Shown here piece after piece: positions 5,705 through 14,453 of a stretch of 64,000 bases of DNA (positions within the stretch are counted from its first letter, which is position 1; the number at the start of each line of letters is the position of its first letter). Origin of the DNA: Flavobacteriaceae bacterium (GTDB taxonomy: Bacteria; Bacteroidota; Bacteroidia; Flavobacteriales; Flavobacteriaceae); assembly GCA_013373635.1 (NCBI GenBank), contig JABXHN010000038.1:1-64000 (forward strand). The letters are read 5' to 3'. A program made the position numbers and the translations under genes. Below the pieces are notes generated by a model, which saw only the letters and a list, made by a program, of their open reading frames with translations, was not told where the DNA came from and did no database searches.

Positions 5705-6361
5705 GTGAAGCGAATTTTAAGTCTCTTATTCCTAGGGAGCAGCTCCCTATTGTTAGCTCAATCTGTATCTGAGGCCAGATCTTGGATCGGCATTAAAACC
5801 AAATTTCAAATTTCAGAAAAACTCCACAATACGATAGGATTGCAATATCGATCGAAGAGTGATTTCAAGGAATTAGATAAGTACTTTTTTGAAAATAATC
5901 TAGACTACGATCTCTCTAAAGATTTTTCCTTAGAAGTCGGTCTTAGAATTGGTAAGAATAACGACACCAATGGAGGTCAGCAAGGAATTGAAAATCAATA
6001 TCGAGTTCATACTGATCTGAACTACAAGAAGAGTTTTGGTGATATAAAGTTTAAATCTAGAGTGCGCTATCAAATATCCAATGAGTTTGAATCTACAGAT
6101 CCTGGCAGTAAATACTTGCGCTTTAAAAACGGAATTGAGTTCCATATTGACAATTGGAAATACGATCCTGAGTTTTTAATTGAACCTTTTATAACGATTG
6201 GTGATCCTAGTTTTTCAGGGATTAAAAAATGGCGTTATGGCGTACAAACCGATCTTCCGATTGGAGCGCACCAACTCAAATTCGTGTATTTTTACATGAC
6301 AGCTACCCAAACCATCGAACGCCATCACATCATCGGTTTGTTTTACAAGTTCAAACTCTAA
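5705..6361 (+). CDS. DUF2490 family protein, probable outer-membrane beta-barrel
   Basis: The start is a GTG two bases after the DUF4956 stop; no ATG lies nearby in frame and the GTG puts a good signal peptide (LFLGSSSLLLAQ) at the N terminus. The mature 200 residues alternate hydrophobic and polar residues in strand-length units and end in LFYKFKL, with a C-terminal aromatic-containing strand as in outer-membrane barrels. DUF2490 members are predicted barrels of unknown role. The stop codon overlaps that of the convergent PHP gene by four bases (CTAA). Confidence 0.8.
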   Translation: MKRILSLLFLGSSSLLLAQSVSEARSWIGIKTKFQISEKLHNTIGLQYRSKSDFKELDKYFFENNLDYDLSKDFSLEVGLRIGKNNDTNGGQQGIENQYRVHTDLNYKKSFGDIKFKSRVRYQISNEFESTDPGSKYLRFKNGIEFHIDNWKYDPEFLIEPFITIGDPSFSGIKKWRYGVQTDLPIGAHQLKFVYFYMTATQTIERHHIIGLFYKFKL

Positions 6362-7488
6362 TCGACTGTCACTTCCCAACTCACCACAGCTTGATCTTTA
6401 GGTGCTGTGTAAGCTTTAAGAGCTTTGAATTTCAATTCAATTCGCTCTAATTGTTCAAGTGTTTTAATCTGAAGAGTAATACTTCCCATTGCAGGAACCG
6501 TAAAAACTCTTGGATTGAAATAGAAGGAATAAGGCATTTGATTTTCGAGCAGTAAATCAGAGCTCGAATGATTGATTAAGGTCAATTCCAACACTTCTGA
6601 TTGATCGAGATAATGTGGATTTTCAACACTTAGAGAATTTTTGAGAAGCGGAATTACAAATTCCTCTTTACCCACCCAAAAGTTATTAAAAACCGCAACA
6701 GTTCTTCCTTCAAAAAGCGCTTCTTTGATGGATTTGAGCTCCTTGTCTTTTGAAAATATTAGGGTGATGGGTCTATGGGTTTGATGTTTGTCTAAATAAT
6801 CCCATCCGATTAAATCGTGTACATCGGAGTTTCCAAGTACAGTCAGTCCTTCTTCTAAAGCTAATGCAAAAGCTTCTTCGCTATAGGCTCCTTCATTGAT
6901 CACTTCAACTCCGTGAAGTTTTCCTTGCTGGATCATTTTCTGTTGAAAATCAGAAAAGATCGGAATTCCTTTGGAGCTTTGGCGGTACCAGGCCGGGTGA
7001 TTCCAAAACACAAAAGCTCCTTGTTTTTTAGCCTCGTTAAAAGATGTTTTTGGATCTTCTTTATCTAAAAGTGGATTAGCATCCGATATAAAAATGGCAT
7101 TATTGTGACCCACAGGTGCTGAACGAGTAATCTCTGATCCTGGAATGACAATGAGATTGTGACTCGCTGCTTCCTTTAAAGCAATTTCATAGGAACGATT
7201 TCGATCAGGGTGCGGAAGGTCCTTTTGATGCGGTTGGTATTCCAAATGCTCTGTCATTGCTATAACATCTAAATCTTCTAATAAGGCTTCTTGAACACGG
7301 ATTGTAGGCCACACATTCCCGTCGGAGAAAACGGTGTGAATATGCAAATCAGAACTCAGCGTTTGATAGCCATCTATATCGGGATATGAAATTTTCTTTT
7401 GAGCGCTGATATGACTATGAGACTGACTGTAAAGCGTAGTCGTCAAAATAAAACTAAAGATTAAGCTGAGGGATTTTAAGTTTTTCAT
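6358..7488 (-). CDS. Secreted PHP-domain phosphodiesterase/phosphoesterase
   Basis: After a signal peptide (residues 1-21, ending TLYSQ) the protein is a PHP-type metal-dependent hydrolase. The expected metal ligands are visible: HIH at 49-51 with D56, H81, E119, H128, H163, and DVH at 221-223. The sequence HTVFSDGNVWPTIRV is characteristic of the Bacteroidota group usually annotated as Sb-PDE-like phosphodiesterase. The last 100 residues form a beta-rich C-terminal domain. It probably removes phosphate esters from organic substrates in the periplasm; the natural substrate is not known. It is divergent from the Nramp-type gene, with 48 bases between start codons. Confidence 0.8.
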   Translation of the reverse strand: MKNLKSLSLIFSFILTTTLYSQSHSHISAQKKISYPDIDGYQTLSSDLHIHTVFSDGNVWPTIRVQEALLEDLDVIAMTEHLEYQPHQKDLPHPDRNRSYEIALKEAASHNLIVIPGSEITRSAPVGHNNAIFISDANPLLDKEDPKTSFNEAKKQGAFVFWNHPAWYRQSSKGIPIFSDFQQKMIQQGKLHGVEVINEGAYSEEAFALALEEGLTVLGNSDVHDLIGWDYLDKHQTHRPITLIFSKDKELKSIKEALFEGRTVAVFNNFWVGKEEFVIPLLKNSLSVENPHYLDQSEVLELTLINHSSSDLLLENQMPYSFYFNPRVFTVPAMGSITLQIKTLEQLERIELKFKALKAYTAPKDQAVVSWEVTVD

Positions 7489-7536: not shown

Positions 7537-8727
7537 ATGAAGAAAGGCTTTAAACTAGGCCCTGCTACCCTAATTACTGCAGCCTTTATCGGACCAGGGA
7601 CGGTTACCATTTGTGCAAAAGCTGGTATTGAATTCGGATTTAGCTTACTCTGGGCACTAGTCCTTTCGATTATTATCGCCATTTCATTTCAGGAAATGTC
7701 GGCTCGAATTGGTATTGTGACCAAAAAAGGATTGGCAGAACTCATCAGAACTGAAATTAAAAATCCGCTTTTAAAAAGTTTGGTAACCCTTTTAATTCTC
7801 TCAGCGATTGTGATTGGAAACACGGCTTATGAAGCTGGAAATCTCAATGGCGCCGTCTTGGGACTAGAAGCCTTATTTACTGAAAAATACGCAAGTTTCT
7901 ACCCTTGGGTTATTGGAATCACAACAGCACTCCTACTGCGTTTTGGATCGATGAAGTATATTAAGAATATTTTGATAGGTTTAGTGCTTTTTATGAGTAG
8001 TTCCTTTTTAATCACAGCCATCATTACTGGTCCAAATCTAGGCGAACTATTTAGTGGATTCATTTCATTTAATCTCGATAGCACTACTGTATTTACGGCC
8101 ATTGCCCTTGTTGGAACCACCGTGGTCCCTTATAATTTGTTCTTACACGCAGCCATGGCTAAAGAACACTGGTGTGATCCCACTGATATAAAATATGCCC
8201 GCTTAGACACCTTTATCGCTATTGGATTGGGAGGAATCATCTCCATATCGATTATGATAACGGCCTCAGCTATTGATGCCACTAGCCTAAAATCTGTAAT
8301 CGATATCGCTGCAGGCCTAGAACCACTCTATGGGAAATTTGCTAAGACGATGATAGGTTTAGGGCTCTTTGCAGCGGGAATTAGTTCTGCATTAACAGCT
8401 CCAATTGCAGCAGCATATGTAGCTAACTCGTGTTTTAACTGGAAGGTGGATCCTTCACATCCAAAGTTTAAAAACACCGCTTTAGTGATTCTGATATTGG
8501 GAATGCTTTCTTTGGGCTTTGGATTTAGTCCTCTGATCATCATTCAATTCGCTCAAATGACCAATGGTATCCTACTGCCAATTTTAGCGATCTATATCCT
8601 ATGGCTGGTCAACAACAATTCACTATTAAAGGAAAATAAAAACGGTATTGTTCAAAATATATTGGGAATTTTAATCGTTATCATAAGCTTACTCATGAGT
8701 TTTAAAACACTTTCCAGTATATTTTAA
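7537..8727 (+). CDS. Nramp-fold transporter with non-canonical substrate motifs
   Basis: The 396-residue protein has about 11 transmembrane segments and the overall plan of the Nramp/Mntp family. The two residues sets that bind divalent metals in true Nramp proteins are not conserved. The first-helix DPGN motif is GPGT (residues 19-22), and the sixth-helix MPH motif is VPYN (197-200). Its stop codon overlaps the start of pxpA (TAATG), followed by pxpB and pxpC. A similar association is known in Bacillus subtilis, where the Nramp-like ycsG lies beside ycsF and kipI/kipA. I infer that this branch may bring in 5-oxoproline or a related compound rather than manganese or iron. That inference is untested. 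Confidence 0.85.
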   Translation: MKKGFKLGPATLITAAFIGPGTVTICAKAGIEFGFSLLWALVLSIIIAISFQEMSARIGIVTKKGLAELIRTEIKNPLLKSLVTLLILSAIVIGNTAYEAGNLNGAVLGLEALFTEKYASFYPWVIGITTALLLRFGSMKYIKNILIGLVLFMSSSFLITAIITGPNLGELFSGFISFNLDSTTVFTAIALVGTTVVPYNLFLHAAMAKEHWCDPTDIKYARLDTFIAIGLGGIISISIMITASAIDATSLKSVIDIAAGLEPLYGKFAKTMIGLGLFAAGISSALTAPIAAAYVANSCFNWKVDPSHPKFKNTALVILILGMLSLGFGFSPLIIIQFAQMTNGILLPILAIYILWLVNNNSLLKENKNGIVQNILGILIVIISLLMSFKTLSSIF

Positions 8728-9446
8728 TGAATCGAAACGAACTACATATCAACTGCGACTTAGGAGAAGGCTCCAAAAATGAATCACAGATCATGAACTA
8801 CATACAGGCCTGTAATATTGCCTGTGGTGGACATTTTGGCGATTCAAATAGTGTTTATCAAACCCTTTCAAAAGCAGTTGATCTCGGAATTGAAGTAGGT
8901 GCTCACCCTTCATACCCAGACTTTGAGAATTTTGGTAGAGTATCCATCAATCTCGACAAAGAAGCGTTCTTTTCAAGTATGAGACAACAATTGGACCTCT
9001 ATTTTGATCAGCTTTCAAAACTAAAAGCTGAAAACAATCACATCAAAGCGCATGGAGCCCTATACAACGACTTATGTGTAAATGAGGAATTGTGTACATG
9101 GTTTTTAGAGATCATAAAGTCCTATCCTCATAAGACATTGTATACTCCTTTTAACGGGAGTTTAGCAGATTTAGCAAAGGAATCAAATCGTCCAGTTTCT
9201 TTTGAGGCCTTTATCGATCGCAATTACAATCGAGAAGGTCGATTGGTATCAAGAGCCCTAGCTAATGCTGAAAAAGATAGCTTGGTGGCTGTATACGATC
9301 AGCTAGAATCCATTCGATTAAAACAAGAAGTTCAATGTACTGATGGAACACTTATCTCTATGAAAGCAGATACATTTTGCATTCACGGAGATCACCCTCT
9401 TGCATTAGAGAGACTACAATTTATAGAAGAACGCTATTCCAAATGA
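8727..9446 (+). CDS. pxpA: 5-oxoprolinase subunit A (LamB/YcsF family)
   Basis: PxpA works with PxpB and PxpC to open 5-oxoproline to glutamate at the cost of ATP. The 239-residue length is close to the family norm of about 250. Family signatures include INCDLGEG at residues 8-15, the NIACGGHFGD segment (about 31-40), the GAHPSYPDFENFGR loop, and HGALYND (about 110-116). The start overlaps the transporter stop by one base, and its own stop overlaps the pxpB start (ATGA), so the four genes are translationally linked. Confidence 0.95.
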   Translation: MNRNELHINCDLGEGSKNESQIMNYIQACNIACGGHFGDSNSVYQTLSKAVDLGIEVGAHPSYPDFENFGRVSINLDKEAFFSSMRQQLDLYFDQLSKLKAENNHIKAHGALYNDLCVNEELCTWFLEIIKSYPHKTLYTPFNGSLADLAKESNRPVSFEAFIDRNYNREGRLVSRALANAEKDSLVAVYDQLESIRLKQEVQCTDGTLISMKADTFCIHGDHPLALERLQFIEERYSK

Positions 9447-10165
9447 GCTATCAATTAATCTATAGACAATACAACGAGCGATCTGTTCTCATTCAATGGC
9501 CTCATCTTATAGACCAGGCTATATTAAAAGATATAAATGAGTTCAAAAAAGCTATTGAATTACACGTTCCCAAAAGCTATTCAGTGATATCCTATAGCGA
9601 ACTCCTTCTGGAATTCCCATCTTATATTGAAGATTATTCAGAGCTTGTAAAAGAGTTGAAAAAACTATATCAAAATAAAGAAGAAGGGAACTACAAATCT
9701 TCTCTCATTCGAATTCCTGTTTGTTATGACCCTTTATTTGGAGTAGATCAAGAACAGCTCTGTGACGATCTAAAGCTTTCTCTTGAAGAATTAGTAGAAC
9801 TTCACACCAAAAACACTTATACTGTTTTTGCAATAGGATTCCTTCCAGGTTTCATGTATTTAGGTGGATTGGACAAGCGACTCTATCACCCTAGACTCAT
9901 CCATCCAAGAGAAAAAGTACCTAAGGGCTCTGTGGGGATTGCAGGGATGCAAACAGGTATTTATCCAGGTGAAAGTCCTGGTGGCTGGCAACTCATAGGA
10001 AGATCTCCATTAGATCTCTTTAAGGTTGAAAATCATCCTCCTTGTTTTGTAAGTGTAGGGGATAAAATTCAGTTTTATCCTATCAATATGGACGAGTACC
10101 AACTCATCAGTATTCAAATAGAAACAAAAATCTATCAACTCGATAAAACTCCCTATGTCTATTAA
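9443..10165 (+). CDS. pxpB: 5-oxoprolinase subunit B
   Basis: The start chosen is the ATG at 9443, which overlaps the pxpA stop as ATGA. A longer in-frame reading from 9377 would sit inside pxpA and adds 22 unconserved residues. The 240-residue protein carries the KipI/PxpB signatures GFLPGFMYLGGLDKRLYHPR and GSVGIAGMQTGIYPGESPGG. With PxpC it forms the carboxyltransferase-like part of 5-oxoprolinase. In B. subtilis the homologue KipI also inhibits a sporulation kinase, which is not relevant here. Confidence 0.95.
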   Translation: MSYQLIYRQYNERSVLIQWPHLIDQAILKDINEFKKAIELHVPKSYSVISYSELLLEFPSYIEDYSELVKELKKLYQNKEEGNYKSSLIRIPVCYDPLFGVDQEQLCDDLKLSLEELVELHTKNTYTVFAIGFLPGFMYLGGLDKRLYHPRLIHPREKVPKGSVGIAGMQTGIYPGESPGGWQLIGRSPLDLFKVENHPPCFVSVGDKIQFYPINMDEYQLISIQIETKIYQLDKTPYVY

Positions 10166-11012
10166 AGTTATCAAATCAGGTATGTATACCTCCGTTCAGG
10201 ATTTAGGTAGAATAGGCTATAGCGAATACGGAGTCCCTAAGGGAGGTGCTATGGATCAAATGGCATTAAAAACCGCTAACTCCCTTCTGGGAAATCAGCT
10301 CGATGATGCCTGCCTTGAAATCACCATGATGGGTCCTGTTCTCCAATTTCAAGCAGACACCTATATCGCTACAGCAGGAGCAGAATTTGAGTTATTTTTA
10401 GACGACGAGCCCATTCCCTTTCGAGAAGCTGTCTTTGTAAAATCCAATCAAGTTCTAAAATTTGGTAAACTCAAAAAGGGCATCCGAATTTATTTAGCAG
10501 TCTGTGGAGGAATTCAAACCCCAAAAGTATTGGAAAGTCGATCACTTCTAAAAAGAGTCACCTCTTATTATAAAATAGAAGACGGCATGGAGCTCCCCTT
10601 ACTTGACAAATGCATGAAGCCTCAGGTATTTGCAGTGCCAAAACCAAAAGACTTTAATGGATTTTTAGAGGCTTATCCTGGCCCTGAATTTGAATCTTTA
10701 AGCGATTCTCAAAAAGAACAACTTCACAAAAATGAATTCAAGGTAAGTCATCTCAACGATCGAATGGCCTATCAAATAGAACCCAATTTGGATCCACATC
10801 AGATAGATCAACTCACTTCAGTTGTCATGGCTGGTTCCGTTCAACTGACCCCAAAGGGAAGTCTGATTATTTTGATGAGAGATGGGCAAACAACTGGAGG
10901 TTATCCAAGAGTTTTGCAACTCAGCGAAGAAAGTATCGATTTAGTAGCTCAAATGGCTACTGCTTCTAAATTCAAGTTTAGATTTCTAACAAAATTTAAG
11001 GAAACCTTATAG
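10155..11012 (+). CDS. pxpC: 5-oxoprolinase subunit C
   Basis: This 285-residue protein matches the KipA/PxpC (biotin-dependent carboxyltransferase-like) family. It begins with KVIKSGMYTSVQDLGRIGYSEYGVPKGGAMDQMAL, in which the SVQDxGR-G and GVPxGGAMD motifs (about residues 12-33) are diagnostic, and contains DGQTTGGYPR near residue 250. Its start overlaps the pxpB end by 11 bases. It completes the pxpABC set and ends 55 bases before nadA. Confidence 0.95.
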   Translation: MSIKVIKSGMYTSVQDLGRIGYSEYGVPKGGAMDQMALKTANSLLGNQLDDACLEITMMGPVLQFQADTYIATAGAEFELFLDDEPIPFREAVFVKSNQVLKFGKLKKGIRIYLAVCGGIQTPKVLESRSLLKRVTSYYKIEDGMELPLLDKCMKPQVFAVPKPKDFNGFLEAYPGPEFESLSDSQKEQLHKNEFKVSHLNDRMAYQIEPNLDPHQIDQLTSVVMAGSVQLTPKGSLIILMRDGQTTGGYPRVLQLSEESIDLVAQMATASKFKFRFLTKFKETL

Positions 11013-11067: not shown

Positions 11068-12045
11068 ATGAATCTTAATGTGCTGGAACAGAGAGGATAT
11101 TTAGATCGACCAATTCCTGATTCTATTGATTTAAAATCAGAGATCAAACAATTGCTCAAATCTAAGAATGCAGTACTTCTCGCACACTATTATCAGAACG
11201 AGGAAATTCAAGATCTTGCCGATTATCTCGGAGATAGTTTATTCTTAGCTCAAAAAGCTAAAGAAGTCACAGCTGACATCATTGTTTTTGCAGGAGTTCA
11301 CTTTATGGCCGAGACTGCAAAAATCATCAATCCAACAAAAAAAGTAGTACTTCCCGATTTAAAAGCAGGATGCTCTCTTGCGGATTCTTGTCCTCCTAAA
11401 GATTTTGCAGCTTTTAAGAAATTACACCCCAATGCAAAGGTGGTTACCTATATCAACTGTTCTGCAGAAATCAAAGCACTGAGTGATATTGTTTGTACCT
11501 CTAGCAATGCGGTCGATGTGATCAACTCTTTTGACAAGGATCAAGAATTGATCTTTGCTCCAGATAAAAACCTTGGAAAATACCTCATTAAAGAAACGGG
11601 AAGAGATCTAATTCTTTGGGATGGTTCTTGTATTGTACACGAAGCATTTTCCTTTGAAAAGATTACCCAACTAGCTATCGAATATCCTGAAGCAAAATTT
11701 ATTGCTCACCCTGAGAGCGAATCACAAATACTCGATATTGCACATTATATTGGCTCTACCTCAGGTCTATTAAACTTTGTTCAAAAGGACAGCGCACAAA
11801 CTTATATCGTAGCAACTGAAGCGGGAATCCTTCACGAGATGAGAAAAGCTGTTCCCCACAAGAATCTCATACCAGCTCCTGTAGACGACGACAGCTGTGC
11901 TTGTAGCGAATGTGCTTTTATGAAATTAAACACTCTGGAAAAACTCTATCTGTGTTTAAAGTACGAACAGCCAGAAATTCAATTAAACGACGAGCTGATA
12001 CGTGATGCCTATCTACCCATTCAACGAATGTTGGATCTAAAGTAA
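11068..12045 (+). CDS. nadA: Quinolinate synthase
   Basis: NadA condenses iminoaspartate with dihydroxyacetone phosphate to quinolinate using a 4Fe-4S cluster. Cluster cysteines are apparent at C102 (GCSLAD), C188 (DGSCIV) and within the C277/C279/C282 group (SCACSECAFMKLN). The LLAHYYQ motif (37-43) is present. At 325 residues it has the usual length of the shorter NadA type. A possible -7-like element GAACTTTG lies at 11034-11041, so nadABC may have its own promoter, or may be read through from pxpC. Confidence 0.96.
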   Translation: MNLNVLEQRGYLDRPIPDSIDLKSEIKQLLKSKNAVLLAHYYQNEEIQDLADYLGDSLFLAQKAKEVTADIIVFAGVHFMAETAKIINPTKKVVLPDLKAGCSLADSCPPKDFAAFKKLHPNAKVVTYINCSAEIKALSDIVCTSSNAVDVINSFDKDQELIFAPDKNLGKYLIKETGRDLILWDGSCIVHEAFSFEKITQLAIEYPEAKFIAHPESESQILDIAHYIGSTSGLLNFVQKDSAQTYIVATEAGILHEMRKAVPHKNLIPAPVDDDSCACSECAFMKLNTLEKLYLCLKYEQPEIQLNDELIRDAYLPIQRMLDLK

Positions 12046-12049
12046 ATCT

Positions 12050-13606
12050 ATGCTAACAGATGTTTTGGTTATCGGTTCAGGAATTGCAGGCATGTCCTAT
12101 GCCATTAAATTATCTGAGCTCAATCCAAAACTTCGTATCGTTGTACTTTCCAAAAGGAATCTTCTCGAAAGCAACACCAAATACGCCCAAGGAGGTATAG
12201 CAGTTGTTCAAAACTTTCAGAAAGATTCTTTCGACAAACACATTGCAGACACCCTAAAGGCTGGTGATGGACTTTGTAATAAAGAGGTGGTCTCCTTTGT
12301 GGTCAAGGAGGGCCCTGATCGATTAGAAGAACTACTCAATTGGGGAACTGAGTTCGATCAAGAAGGTGAAGGTTTTCATCTGGGTAAAGAAGGTGGTCAT
12401 ACCGCGAAGCGAATTGTTCATTACAAAGACAAATCAGGTCATCAGATTCAAGAGGCATTGATTAAAAAAATTAAATCCATCCCTCAAATCACCATCTTAG
12501 AAAATCACACCCTAGTCAATTTGATCACCGATCACCAATTGGAGCAAGGATCTAAGAGAAGGTGCTATGGAGCCTATGTAATTTCATCCAAGGATCAACG
12601 GATCGTTAAGATTGTTGCAGGATTAACGGTATTATCCACTGGTGGTGCAGGAGCCGTTTACAATAAAACCACCAACCCTGATTCAGCTACAGGAGATGGT
12701 ATTGCTGCAGCCTATAGAGCTAAAGTAACAATTGCCAATCTACAATACGTTCAATTCCATCCAACGGCCTTAGCTCCAGATTACAATGGCAAAACCTTTT
12801 TGATCTCTGAAGCCGTAAGAGGTGCAGGAGCTCACTTAAAAAATTCTAAGGGAGAACGATTTGTTTTTAAACACGACCCTAGAGGTGAAATGGCTTCGAG
12901 AGATATTGTAGCAAGAGCCATTGAAATTGAACTCAAAGAACCAGGTGAAAAAGTCTATTTGGATTGTAGCCCCATCGGAAAAGAAGTCTTTGAATTAGAA
13001 TTTCCAACGATTTATCAGGCATGTAAAAATCTAGAGATTGATCCCTTTACAGAAGGCATACCAGTGCTTCCTGCTGCACATTATTTCTGTGGAGGTATCG
13101 ATGTCGATCAAAACTCTCAAACCTCGCTCAGTCATCTTTATGCGATTGGCGAGTGCAGCCATACTGGCTTACACGGAGCCAATCGATTGGCTTCTAACTC
13201 ACTCCTGGAAGCTTTAGTTTTTGCTCATAGAGCAGCTGTTCATTCGAATGACTATTTTGAGAACAATTCACTAGATTTAGTAGAAGAACAAATTCCCAAT
13301 TGGAAAGACACAGACATCATCAAGGATCAAGAATCAAAAGTGATTGGTCGATTAAAATCTAGCCTACAAGAACTGATGAGTCAACAAGTGGGAATTTTCA
13401 AGTCAAATCAAAGTTTACAACAGGCAGAAAAAGAACTTGAAAAGGTCTATTTGGCTACCAAAGACATCTATGAAAATAAGAAGTTGACACACCAAATATG
13501 TGAACTTAGAAATTTAGTCAACGTCGCTTATTTAATCATCAAACAATCTCAAAACTGTAAAGAAAACAGAGGCGGATTTTACAATATTGATTATGAAAAC
13601 CTATAG
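12050..13606 (+). CDS. nadB: L-aspartate oxidase
   Basis: NadB oxidises L-aspartate to iminoaspartate, the substrate of NadA. The N terminus has the FAD-binding GSGIAGMSYAIKLSE (residues 8-22). Further flavoprotein signatures are YAQGGIAV, QFHPTAL, PAAHYFCGGI and HGANRLASNSLLEALVF. The 518-residue length fits the family. It begins four bases after nadA and overlaps the start of nadC. Confidence 0.96.
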   Translation: MLTDVLVIGSGIAGMSYAIKLSELNPKLRIVVLSKRNLLESNTKYAQGGIAVVQNFQKDSFDKHIADTLKAGDGLCNKEVVSFVVKEGPDRLEELLNWGTEFDQEGEGFHLGKEGGHTAKRIVHYKDKSGHQIQEALIKKIKSIPQITILENHTLVNLITDHQLEQGSKRRCYGAYVISSKDQRIVKIVAGLTVLSTGGAGAVYNKTTNPDSATGDGIAAAYRAKVTIANLQYVQFHPTALAPDYNGKTFLISEAVRGAGAHLKNSKGERFVFKHDPRGEMASRDIVARAIEIELKEPGEKVYLDCSPIGKEVFELEFPTIYQACKNLEIDPFTEGIPVLPAAHYFCGGIDVDQNSQTSLSHLYAIGECSHTGLHGANRLASNSLLEALVFAHRAAVHSNDYFENNSLDLVEEQIPNWKDTDIIKDQESKVIGRLKSSLQELMSQQVGIFKSNQSLQQAEKELEKVYLATKDIYENKKLTHQICELRNLVNVAYLIIKQSQNCKENRGGFYNIDYENL

Positions 13607-14453
13607 CAGTACCTATCAAAAAGAACTCCAACAATTTATCGAATCGGCTTTAAAAGAAGATATCGGACCTGGAGACTTTAGTGCCTTAGCAGCATTGGAC
13701 ACGGAGCAAGAAGGAGCTGCGCAACTCATCGTTAAAGAAGATTGTGTCCTAGCAGGTGTCGAATTGGCAAAACTCATCTTTACACAATACGATCCGAGTC
13801 TTGAAATTGAAACCTTTATTGAGGACGGAGAAAAAGTAAGCACTGGAGCCATTGCTTTTAAGGTCAGAGGAACTACTCAATCCATACTCGCTACAGAACG
13901 ATTGGTTCTCAATGTGATGCAACGCATGAGTGGTATTGCAACGCTCACAAATGAGAATCAAAATTTGATTAACCACACCAAGTGCAAGGTATTAGACACC
14001 AGAAAAACAACTCCTAATTTTAGAATTGCTGAAAAATGGGCTGTTGTCATTGGCGGAGGTGTTAATCACAGAATGGGTCTTTACGATATGATCATGCTCA
14101 AAGACAATCACATCGATTACTGTGGAGGGGTGAGCGCTGCTATTGAAAAGACGATTGACTTTTTAAAACTAAAACAATTGGACCTACCTATCATCGTTGA
14201 AACTAGAGATTTAAATGAGGTAAAAGCTTGTTTAGACTACCCTGAAATCCACCGTATTTTGCTCGACAATATGAGCACTGATCAGCTCCGTGAAGCAGTT
14301 AAATTGATCAATGGTAAAATTCCCACAGAAGCTTCTGGAAACATCACTAAGGACACAATTGTATCGATTGCTGAAACAGGTGTAGATTACGTTTCACTGG
14401 GATCGGTAACACACTCTGCTCCAAATATCGATTTGAGTTTAAAAGCCCTTTAA
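13593..14453 (+). CDS. nadC: Nicotinate-nucleotide pyrophosphorylase (carboxylating)
   Basis: NadC converts quinolinate and PRPP to nicotinate mononucleotide and completes the de novo route begun by nadA and nadB. The ATG at 13593 is preferred to a TTG two codons earlier; it overlaps the nadB end by 14 bases. Family signatures are ALKEDIGPGDFS near the N terminus, ERLVLNVMQRMSGIAT, DTRKTTPNFR, GGGVNHRMGLYD and MLKDNHI, which contain the basic residues that bind quinolinate. Length 286 residues is typical. Confidence 0.96.
   Translation: MKTYSSTYQKELQQFIESALKEDIGPGDFSALAALDTEQEGAAQLIVKEDCVLAGVELAKLIFTQYDPSLEIETFIEDGEKVSTGAIAFKVRGTTQSILATERLVLNVMQRMSGIATLTNENQNLINHTKCKVLDTRKTTPNFRIAEKWAVVIGGGVNHRMGLYDMIMLKDNHIDYCGGVSAAIEKTIDFLKLKQLDLPIIVETRDLNEVKACLDYPEIHRILLDNMSTDQLREAVKLINGKIPTEASGNITKDTIVSIAETGVDYVSLGSVTHSAPNIDLSLKAL

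Follow-up and report, generated by a model that had tools for sequence, protein, structure and literature searches.

A candidate 5-oxoproline importer of the Nramp fold, encoded by a gene that overlaps pxpA in a Flavobacteriaceae bacterium

What does an Nramp-family transporter carry when most residues of its metal site are replaced and its gene overlaps those of a 5-oxoprolinase? This question is raised by a locus in a 64,000-nucleotide stretch of Flavobacteriaceae bacterium DNA (assembly GCA_013373635.1, contig JABXHN010000038.1, positions 1 to 64,000; hereafter the window). There, an open reading frame of 396 amino acids at positions 7537–8727 encodes an Nramp-fold protein (PF01566, E 3.8e-81), and is followed on the same forward strand by pxpA, of the LamB/YcsF family, for 5-oxoprolinase subunit A (8727–9446; PF03746, 1.9e-61), pxpB for subunit B (9443–10165, ATG at 9443; PF02682, 1.7e-59) and pxpC for subunit C (10155–11012; PF02626, 3.2e-66). 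From its sequence and its neighbourhood, we propose that this protein, a member of what we call the GPGT lineage, probably imports not manganese but 5-oxoproline (pyroglutamate), or else a five-membered lactam that closely resembles it.

The four genes are tightly packed. Specifically, the stop codon of the transporter gene runs into the start codon of pxpA by a single base, the A at 8727 in TAATG; pxpA and pxpB overlap by four bases (ATGA), pxpB and pxpC by eleven, and the LamB/YcsF, CT_C_D and CT_A_B domains of Pfam form one array in the window. An earlier note on this DNA had described the transporter gene as overlapping pxpA, with pxpB and pxpC downstream, and this is confirmed; its expression "fused by overlap" was too strong, since one base is shared and the transporter and PxpA are separate proteins. 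As for the subunits, PxpB exceeds its NCBIfam cut-off (TIGR00370, 163.1 bits vs 145.55). The best-scoring NCBIfam models for PxpA are PxpA models, with scores under their cut-offs; PxpC is also under the cut-offs (NF045499, TIGR00724), and a 5-oxoprolinase/urea amidolyase family model outscores the PxpC model.

By alignment with DraNramp, whose residue numbers (Dra) are used hereafter, the GPGT codons in transmembrane helix 1 (TM1; residues 19–22, positions 7591–7602) occupy the site of the canonical DPGN (D56–N59), and the VPYN codons in TM6 (residues 197–200, positions 8125–8136) that of the canonical MPH (M230–H232, VPYN spanning M230–V233), as the earlier note had read from the letters. 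These residues were then compared across 210 aligned Nramp-fold sequences, reduced to 193 once duplicates had been taken out. The GPGT lineage takes up 143 rows of this alignment; following the TM6 motif, 11 of them read FLG and the other 132 belong to the FLH type, which here includes two FLY rows. D56 is replaced by G and N59 by T in 142/142 GPGT rows with a residue there, and M230 is replaced by V and H232 by Y in 143/143. The 12 DPGN rows all keep D, N, M and H at the four positions, the three NRMT rows have D56 and W232, and the GPGF rows have G56, F59, G230 and Y232 in 8/8. Tyr232 is found in no DPGN or NRMT row, nor in those of the remaining sampled groups (GTGS 13, GVSH 10, GPGS 2, GSGS 1, GTSH 1), so that G56 together with Y232 is common to the two 5-oxoprolinase-linked lineages, GPGT and GPGF. 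Q378 is retained in the window protein.

The way in which sequences were gathered bears on these counts. Eighty named loci were found by patterns containing GPGT or GTT[VI]VPY, and invariance there is partly by construction; profile searches of 60 relatives and of a phylum sample are free of this pattern bias. The matches at 31–34% identity that were followed, from Collinsella, Paraburkholderia, Azospirillum and Calothrix only, are all DPGN, and eleven PF01566 matches of 29–58 bits in the 60 relatives were left unread.

Linkage with pxpA was assessed in both samples. Among the 60 relatives, which include the genome of the window, the GPGT gene is present in 23 of 28 genomes with pxpA and in none of the 32 without (Fisher p 4e-12, kinship uncorrected), and adjoins pxpA in 22 of the 23 (exception G029; G and L numbers are our labels for genomes and loci); counting genomes of the same family only gives 23/28 and 0/9. 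The phylum sample comprised 148 Bacteroidota genomes drawn across the phylum, 34 with pxpA over the cut-off and 114 without. Here, GPGT genes scoring above 460 bits occur in 24/34 and 0/114, respectively (Fisher p 5e-20, again uncorrected for kinship), with 20 of the 24 pairs adjacent, one 1.2 kb apart (G170) and three apart (G117, G140, G174). When every GPGT gene is counted, the values become 26/34 and 9/114, and 33 of the 35 genomes with such a gene contain either pxpA or a HyuA gene next to the transporter gene, the exceptions being G094, where neither was seen, and G182, where the contig ends. In 73 of the 80 named loci, pxpA lies within 600 bases of the transporter gene, and in L055 it is 4 kb away. 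The stretch at the other six lacks it, and their genomes have it elsewhere; the copies found nearby are on the transporter strand in 74/74. As a control, pxpA was near 0/29 non-GPGT Nramp-fold genes of the same group (DPGN, GTGS, GPGS, GVSH/GTSH), with flanks of about 1.4 kb read for 9 genes and of 2.6 kb or more for 20. Since the substitutions and the neighbourhood both recur in other genomes, the arrangement in the window is more than chance.

Two further features of the named loci deserve mention. A gene for a DUF2891 protein lies directly upstream of the transporter gene in 47/80 (for instance L036, 6881–7987); its model is an all-helical fold, and it matches C. jejuni CJ0554, a DUF2891 protein, at 39% identity. 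In addition, two Kordia loci (L073, 9237–10685; L077, 9213–10664) carry a single frame of about 483 amino acids with pxpA as best match and no separate pxpB frame before pxpC, probably a pxpA-pxpB fusion judging from the reading frames.

GPGT genes also occur at loci of a second kind. Haloarchaeal members, 40–44% identical to the window protein, lie on plasmids, and in 6/8 loci the transporter gene is followed without gap by HyuA and HyuB (L033, L123, L124, L163, L164, L166). By its coordinates, L165 would make a seventh, with HyuB just across the record start; at L131 neither HyuA nor HyuB is adjacent, and the same record has pxpA and two HyuB genes elsewhere. In the Bacteroidota, the phylum sample yielded 15 lower-scoring matches, the four lowest being NRMT-like (2) or DPGN (2) and the other 11 GPGT (262–321 bits). 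Ten of these GPGT genes have FLG for FLH, and one (G094, L197) has FLH yet groups with FLG. HyuA, or a HyuAB fusion of 1279 amino acids, is adjacent in 7/10 determinable loci; pxpA is present in two of the 11 genomes, away from the GPGT gene. The simpler notion that GPGT itself marks pxp linkage proved wrong, since the lower-scoring GPGT genes mostly adjoin HyuA, not pxpA. TRAP transporter genes stand beside a HyuAB-linked GPGT gene at L202 (7270–11794; DctM, DctQ and DctP by Pfam) and at L204 (a similar frame, by its sequence start); the available text of PMC13274462 mentions TRAP receptors of Bordetella to which 5-oxoproline binds.

HyuA/HyuB, a hydantoinase/oxoprolinase, is a family unrelated by homology to PxpABC. 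The pxp-linked and Hyu-linked members therefore share five-membered-lactam chemistry and not an enzyme family, and nothing else speaks as strongly against a metal role, though the exact ring may differ. A reading close to ours has also to be weighed, in which the protein would import a related compound, such as D-5-oxoproline, hydantoin or another cyclic imide or lactam, acted on by PxpABC or HyuAB. Among solved structures, haloarchaeal HyuA is nearest to N-methylhydantoinase (E 1e-135) and then to 5-oxoprolinase (E 3e-118), and the common substrate could thus be hydantoin-like. In the eight haloarchaeal loci, a gene annotated as aspartate/glutamate racemase is found in three and one for maleate isomerase in one, and a D-glutamate cyclase family gene occurs in 5/8 GPGF loci, where Pfam identified two and BLAST matches to these gave the other three, of which one is a partial frame. 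On the other side, PxpABC is an ATP-dependent 5-oxoprolinase, reported as such in C. glutamicum and B. subtilis (PMC13274462, PMC10448178; both cited throughout from their available parts), and the window genes belong to those families. We consider import of a related compound unlikely, with some real chance of being right.

The place of the window protein in the Nramp family was determined with IQ-TREE and two support values, in a tree of 43 rows without the FLG rows and one of 59 rows with them and without the GTGS and GVSH rows. In the smaller tree, the GPGT rows form one clade (97/96, and 97/94 after removal of the motif columns), and the DPGN and GPGF rows form clades at 100/100 each, both without the window protein. 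In the larger tree, NRMT and DPGN are split from every GPGT and GPGF row at 95/96, and the three NRMT rows group at 100/100 with the window protein, which is not DAGG-type in TM1, outside. The same tree contains a HyuAB-linked side (haloarchaea and FLG bacteria, 85/88) and a pxp-linked Bacteroidota side (95/94); GPGT monophyly appears in only 28% of its bootstrap trees, Pseudoalteromonas L032 is unplaced, and the GPGT group may, on these alignments, be paraphyletic. In approximately unbiased (AU) tests, GPGT plus GPGF as one clade was neither shown nor rejected (p 0.216), and GPGT plus DPGN (p 0.319) and GPGT plus DPGN plus NRMT (p 0.24) were not rejected. The best trees thus set the window protein apart from proven metal transporters, the outcome of a phylogeny that the earlier note had suggested as a check, with the deep order unresolved.

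The parallel that had been drawn with ycsG beside ycsF in B. subtilis holds for the pairing of the genes, but YcsG is not a close counterpart, its model being 20% identical to that of the window protein and its lineage probably the separate GPGF one. The window protein lies outside the GPGF clade, with 19–22% identity to its members (B. badius homologue 19%, A. baumannii MumT 21%, L. plantarum 22%). We infer the lineage of YcsG from a B. badius locus in which pxpA, a GPGF-type NRAMP gene and a hydro-lyase gene follow the ycsF-ycsG-ycsI order, which is described for B. subtilis in the accessible part of PMC3412718; YcsG itself entered only through structural alignment of 9a52, an integrative model in the PDB, and the trees contain neither the YcsG nor the PxpT sequence. 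PxpT of C. glutamicum, 50% identical to YcsG (PMC13274462), would by that identity fall on the YcsG side. The eight GPGF loci were found through pxpA (L115, L116, L118, L120) or through the transporter (L127–L130), and pxpA is present in 4/4 of the latter.

In this other branch, use of 5-oxoproline through an Nramp-family protein is already in print. Deletion of pxpT blocks growth of C. glutamicum on external 5-oxoproline, a metal role not being excluded (PMC13274462), and YcsG is reported to be needed for 5-oxoproline use in B. subtilis (Niehaus et al. 2017, as cited in PMC13274462). Like the window protein, PxpT and YcsG/MntG belong to the Nramp family and are encoded in one operon with pxpABC. 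Those of their GPGF relatives that were examined also lack DPGN and MPH and share with it G56, Y232 and a Gly-Asn pair in TM3, and differ from it in their GPGF and VGGY motifs and their separate lineage. The idea of 5-oxoproline transport put forward in the earlier note is therefore backed by the linkage to 5-oxoprolinase genes but was published beforehand for the YcsG branch; what is new here is the different lineage.

The same branch supplies the case for manganese, and thereby for a reading of the window protein as an importer of Mn2+, or another divalent metal, that would stand with the 5-oxoprolinase genes perhaps as their metal supply. On the strength of genetics and of measured cell Mn, YcsG has been described as a Mn importer and renamed MntG: cells contain more Mn when they carry Pspac-ycsG, and the mntH mntA ycsG triple mutant could be made only in the presence of another copy of ycsG (PMC10448178, which adds that polar effects in the 2017 work are not excluded). 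MumT of A. baumannii, encoded like the window protein beside a pxpA homologue, and differing from it in its GPGF lineage and 21% identity, is a published Mn importer on the same two kinds of evidence, delta-mumT lowering cell Mn (available text of PMC5050338). Furthermore, the conserved TM3 Glu99 may lie at or near E134, and only 3/60 relatives have an Nramp match above 400 bits, all three DPGN, so that for most of the group Mn enters by a different route. Against a metal importer stand the replacement of D56, N59, M230 and H232 alike, the lack of any Nramp-fold match at E 0.001 in 21/60 relatives, and a linkage that follows enzymes of two unrelated families acting on five-membered lactams. 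In addition, the Mn evidence comes from the other lineage, and the terms "proteoliposome" and "uptake assay" are absent from the available text of PMC10448178. We regard a metal role for the window protein as improbable.

The A. baumannii mum locus (L115, 4701–10902), published as one of manganese and urea metabolism, contains, beside MumT, a pxpB/pxpC-like fusion, a gene of the D-glutamate cyclase family, a homologue of pxpA and a gene taken to encode biotin carboxylase from the start of its sequence and from what has been published on the locus. This set of genes would suit a 5-oxoproline-type pathway no less than urea.

Along with the manganese reports on MntG and MumT and the hydantoinase affinity of HyuA, several observations weigh against 5-oxoproline import by the window protein. 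The first concerns TM3, which reads Y98-E-A-G-N102 (E99 to N102 at positions 7831–7842). N102 is N in 143/143 GPGT rows and 8/8 GPGF rows, and also in both GPGS rows; at the position of E99, E is found in 133 and Q in 10 of the 143 GPGT rows, so the acid of TM3 is not clearly lost. MAFFT, phmmer and a profile alignment on the DPGN rows place N102 on E134, and most alignments place E99 on D131, whereas a profile alignment on NRMT (3 sequences) places E99 on E134, as do, in our interpretation, the residue numbers A131Y and G135N in the available text of PMC10606218. The Glu equivalent to E134 contacts Mn2+ in BfraNramp. The disagreement among the TM3 alignments weighs against the simple statement that all metal residues are gone; the earlier claim of a lost metal site stands for the replaced TM1 and TM6 motifs. 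We had also considered Asn in place of E134 throughout as a mark of the two oxoprolinase-linked lineages, and dropped it, since the TM3 alignments shift by three residues and both GPGS rows have N102.

The distribution of the genes adds further points of this kind. A GPGT gene is present in 9/114 phylum-sample genomes without pxpA (in 7 of them beside HyuA) and missing from 8/34 with it, and 3/10 determinable lower-scoring loci (G094, G128, G113) have neither enzyme adjacent, G182 running off its contig. Lastly, literature searches, which covered titles and the starts of abstracts with most subscription journals outside, gave no function or assay for a member of the GPGT lineage.

Comparison with characterised members of the family helps to place the lineage. 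Canonical Nramp/MntH proteins (E. coli MntH, DraNramp) have the same fold, PF01566 and Q378, and differ from the window protein in the TM1 and TM6 metal residues, at 23–24% identity. The Mg2+ transporter EleNRMT also has this fold without DPGN, and differs in keeping D56, in having W at 232 and in falling on the metal side of the tree. In the portions available of a study by Cellier (PMC10606218), an "orphan" Slc11 outgroup within PF01566 is defined by Y and N four residues apart in h3, V and Y in h6, T at A228 and six h3 changes, GYGNGG. The window protein has the corresponding Y98/N102, V197/Y199, T194 and G94-Y98-G101-N102-G105-G109, with the h3 alignment of that study, by its residue numbers, three residues off ours; by these named substituents the GPGT lineage fits the outgroup. 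Nramp-related groups are also described as paraphyletic to the canonical Nramps in a preprint (PMC12873925, as far as its text was available), with MntG in "G-motif 3", EleNRMT in "NRMT-like" and others uncharacterized.

How could such a protein handle 5-oxoproline? The AlphaFold2 model (predicted local distance difference test, pLDDT, 84.8) has helix breaks at residues 18–19 and 196–197; in the LeuT fold these are the sites of TM1 and TM6 where the two motifs lie. A fold search with VIA-align returned, among the best 50 matches listed, only Nramps and other LeuT-fold carriers, the Nramps first and then, at Z of about 27–32, the others, a good number of which carry amino acids. Aligned to the model, DraNramp reaches Z 48.9 over 370 residues (21% identity), EleNRMT Z 45.4 (25%) and YcsG (9a52) Z 41.5 (20%). 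On this basis, the protein would act as an inner-membrane LeuT-fold carrier importing 5-oxoproline by alternating access. The substrate would occupy the Mn2+ site of canonical Nramps, between TM1 and TM6 where these helices break, with Gly19, Thr22, Val197 and Tyr199 in place of Asp, Asn, Met and His. These pocket contacts are deduced from the alignment, and the substrate and the direction are likewise proposals. Of the canonical proton route, D56 and H232 are missing, and the conserved Glu99 may stand in for D131 or E134. Inside the cell, PxpABC would open 5-oxoproline to glutamate with ATP. In addition, the Gly-x-Gly of TM1 may be comparable to the carboxylate-binding motif of APC amino-acid carriers; such a TM1 motif was looked for in PMC5809530 without success.

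The direction of transport is not readable from the sequence, and 5-oxoproline also forms inside cells (PMC13274462), which could suit an exporter of 5-oxoproline or an exchanger for another solute. The growth defect of the pxpT deletion on external 5-oxoproline argues against this, PxpT being placed by inference in the other lineage, and we rate export or exchange as very improbable. Import of 5-oxoproline or a very close lactam remains the reading that we favour.

The surroundings of the locus vary among relatives. Downstream of pxpC, nadA, nadB and nadC follow on the same strand (11068–14453). In eight wider stretches of relatives, the same layout is found in one (L219, a near copy), nadCBA lies beside pxpC on the opposite strand in L215 and L217, and no nad gene is present in five, nor in any of the 80 named loci. 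On the other side, a gene for a PHP/DUF5001 protein (6358–7488) is divergent from the transporter gene, 48 bases apart, and lies on the transporter strand in some other species of the genus (L021, L024–L026). Promoter and terminator scans gave sites no more frequent than in shuffled sequences. The genome of the window has a second Nramp-fold gene (L002, 1372–2616; G000, contig 90), with GTSH in TM1, which groups with the GVSH genes, and DPGN occurs in neither of its two PF01566 matches. One Bacteroidota genome carries two Nramp-fold genes in tandem, of the GPGS and GTGS types (L151, 4549–7119).

In conclusion, we propose a function for the GPGT lineage, whose features fit those of groups that PMC10606218 and PMC12873925, in their available texts, term "orphan" or "uncharacterized"; its members are annotated in public records as metal transporters. 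As a wider and still tentative possibility, about which we remain doubtful, GPGT and GPGF, distant lineages of about 20% identity, may both serve 5-oxoproline-type lactams, with Gly56, Tyr232 and the TM3 Gly-Asn pair as the older state. The metal branch (NRMT and canonical Slc11) would then descend from lactam-acid importers of this kind in which Asp56 and the TM6 ligands had been acquired, and MntG and MumT would be 5-oxoproline carriers with indirect manganese effects. The finding bears on the live conflict between manganese and 5-oxoproline over YcsG/MntG and MumT, and it points to positions 56 and 232 and the TM3 EAGN as residues for how metal and organic-acid carriers differ on one fold. 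With it, the ancestral substrate of the SLC11 family becomes a testable question.

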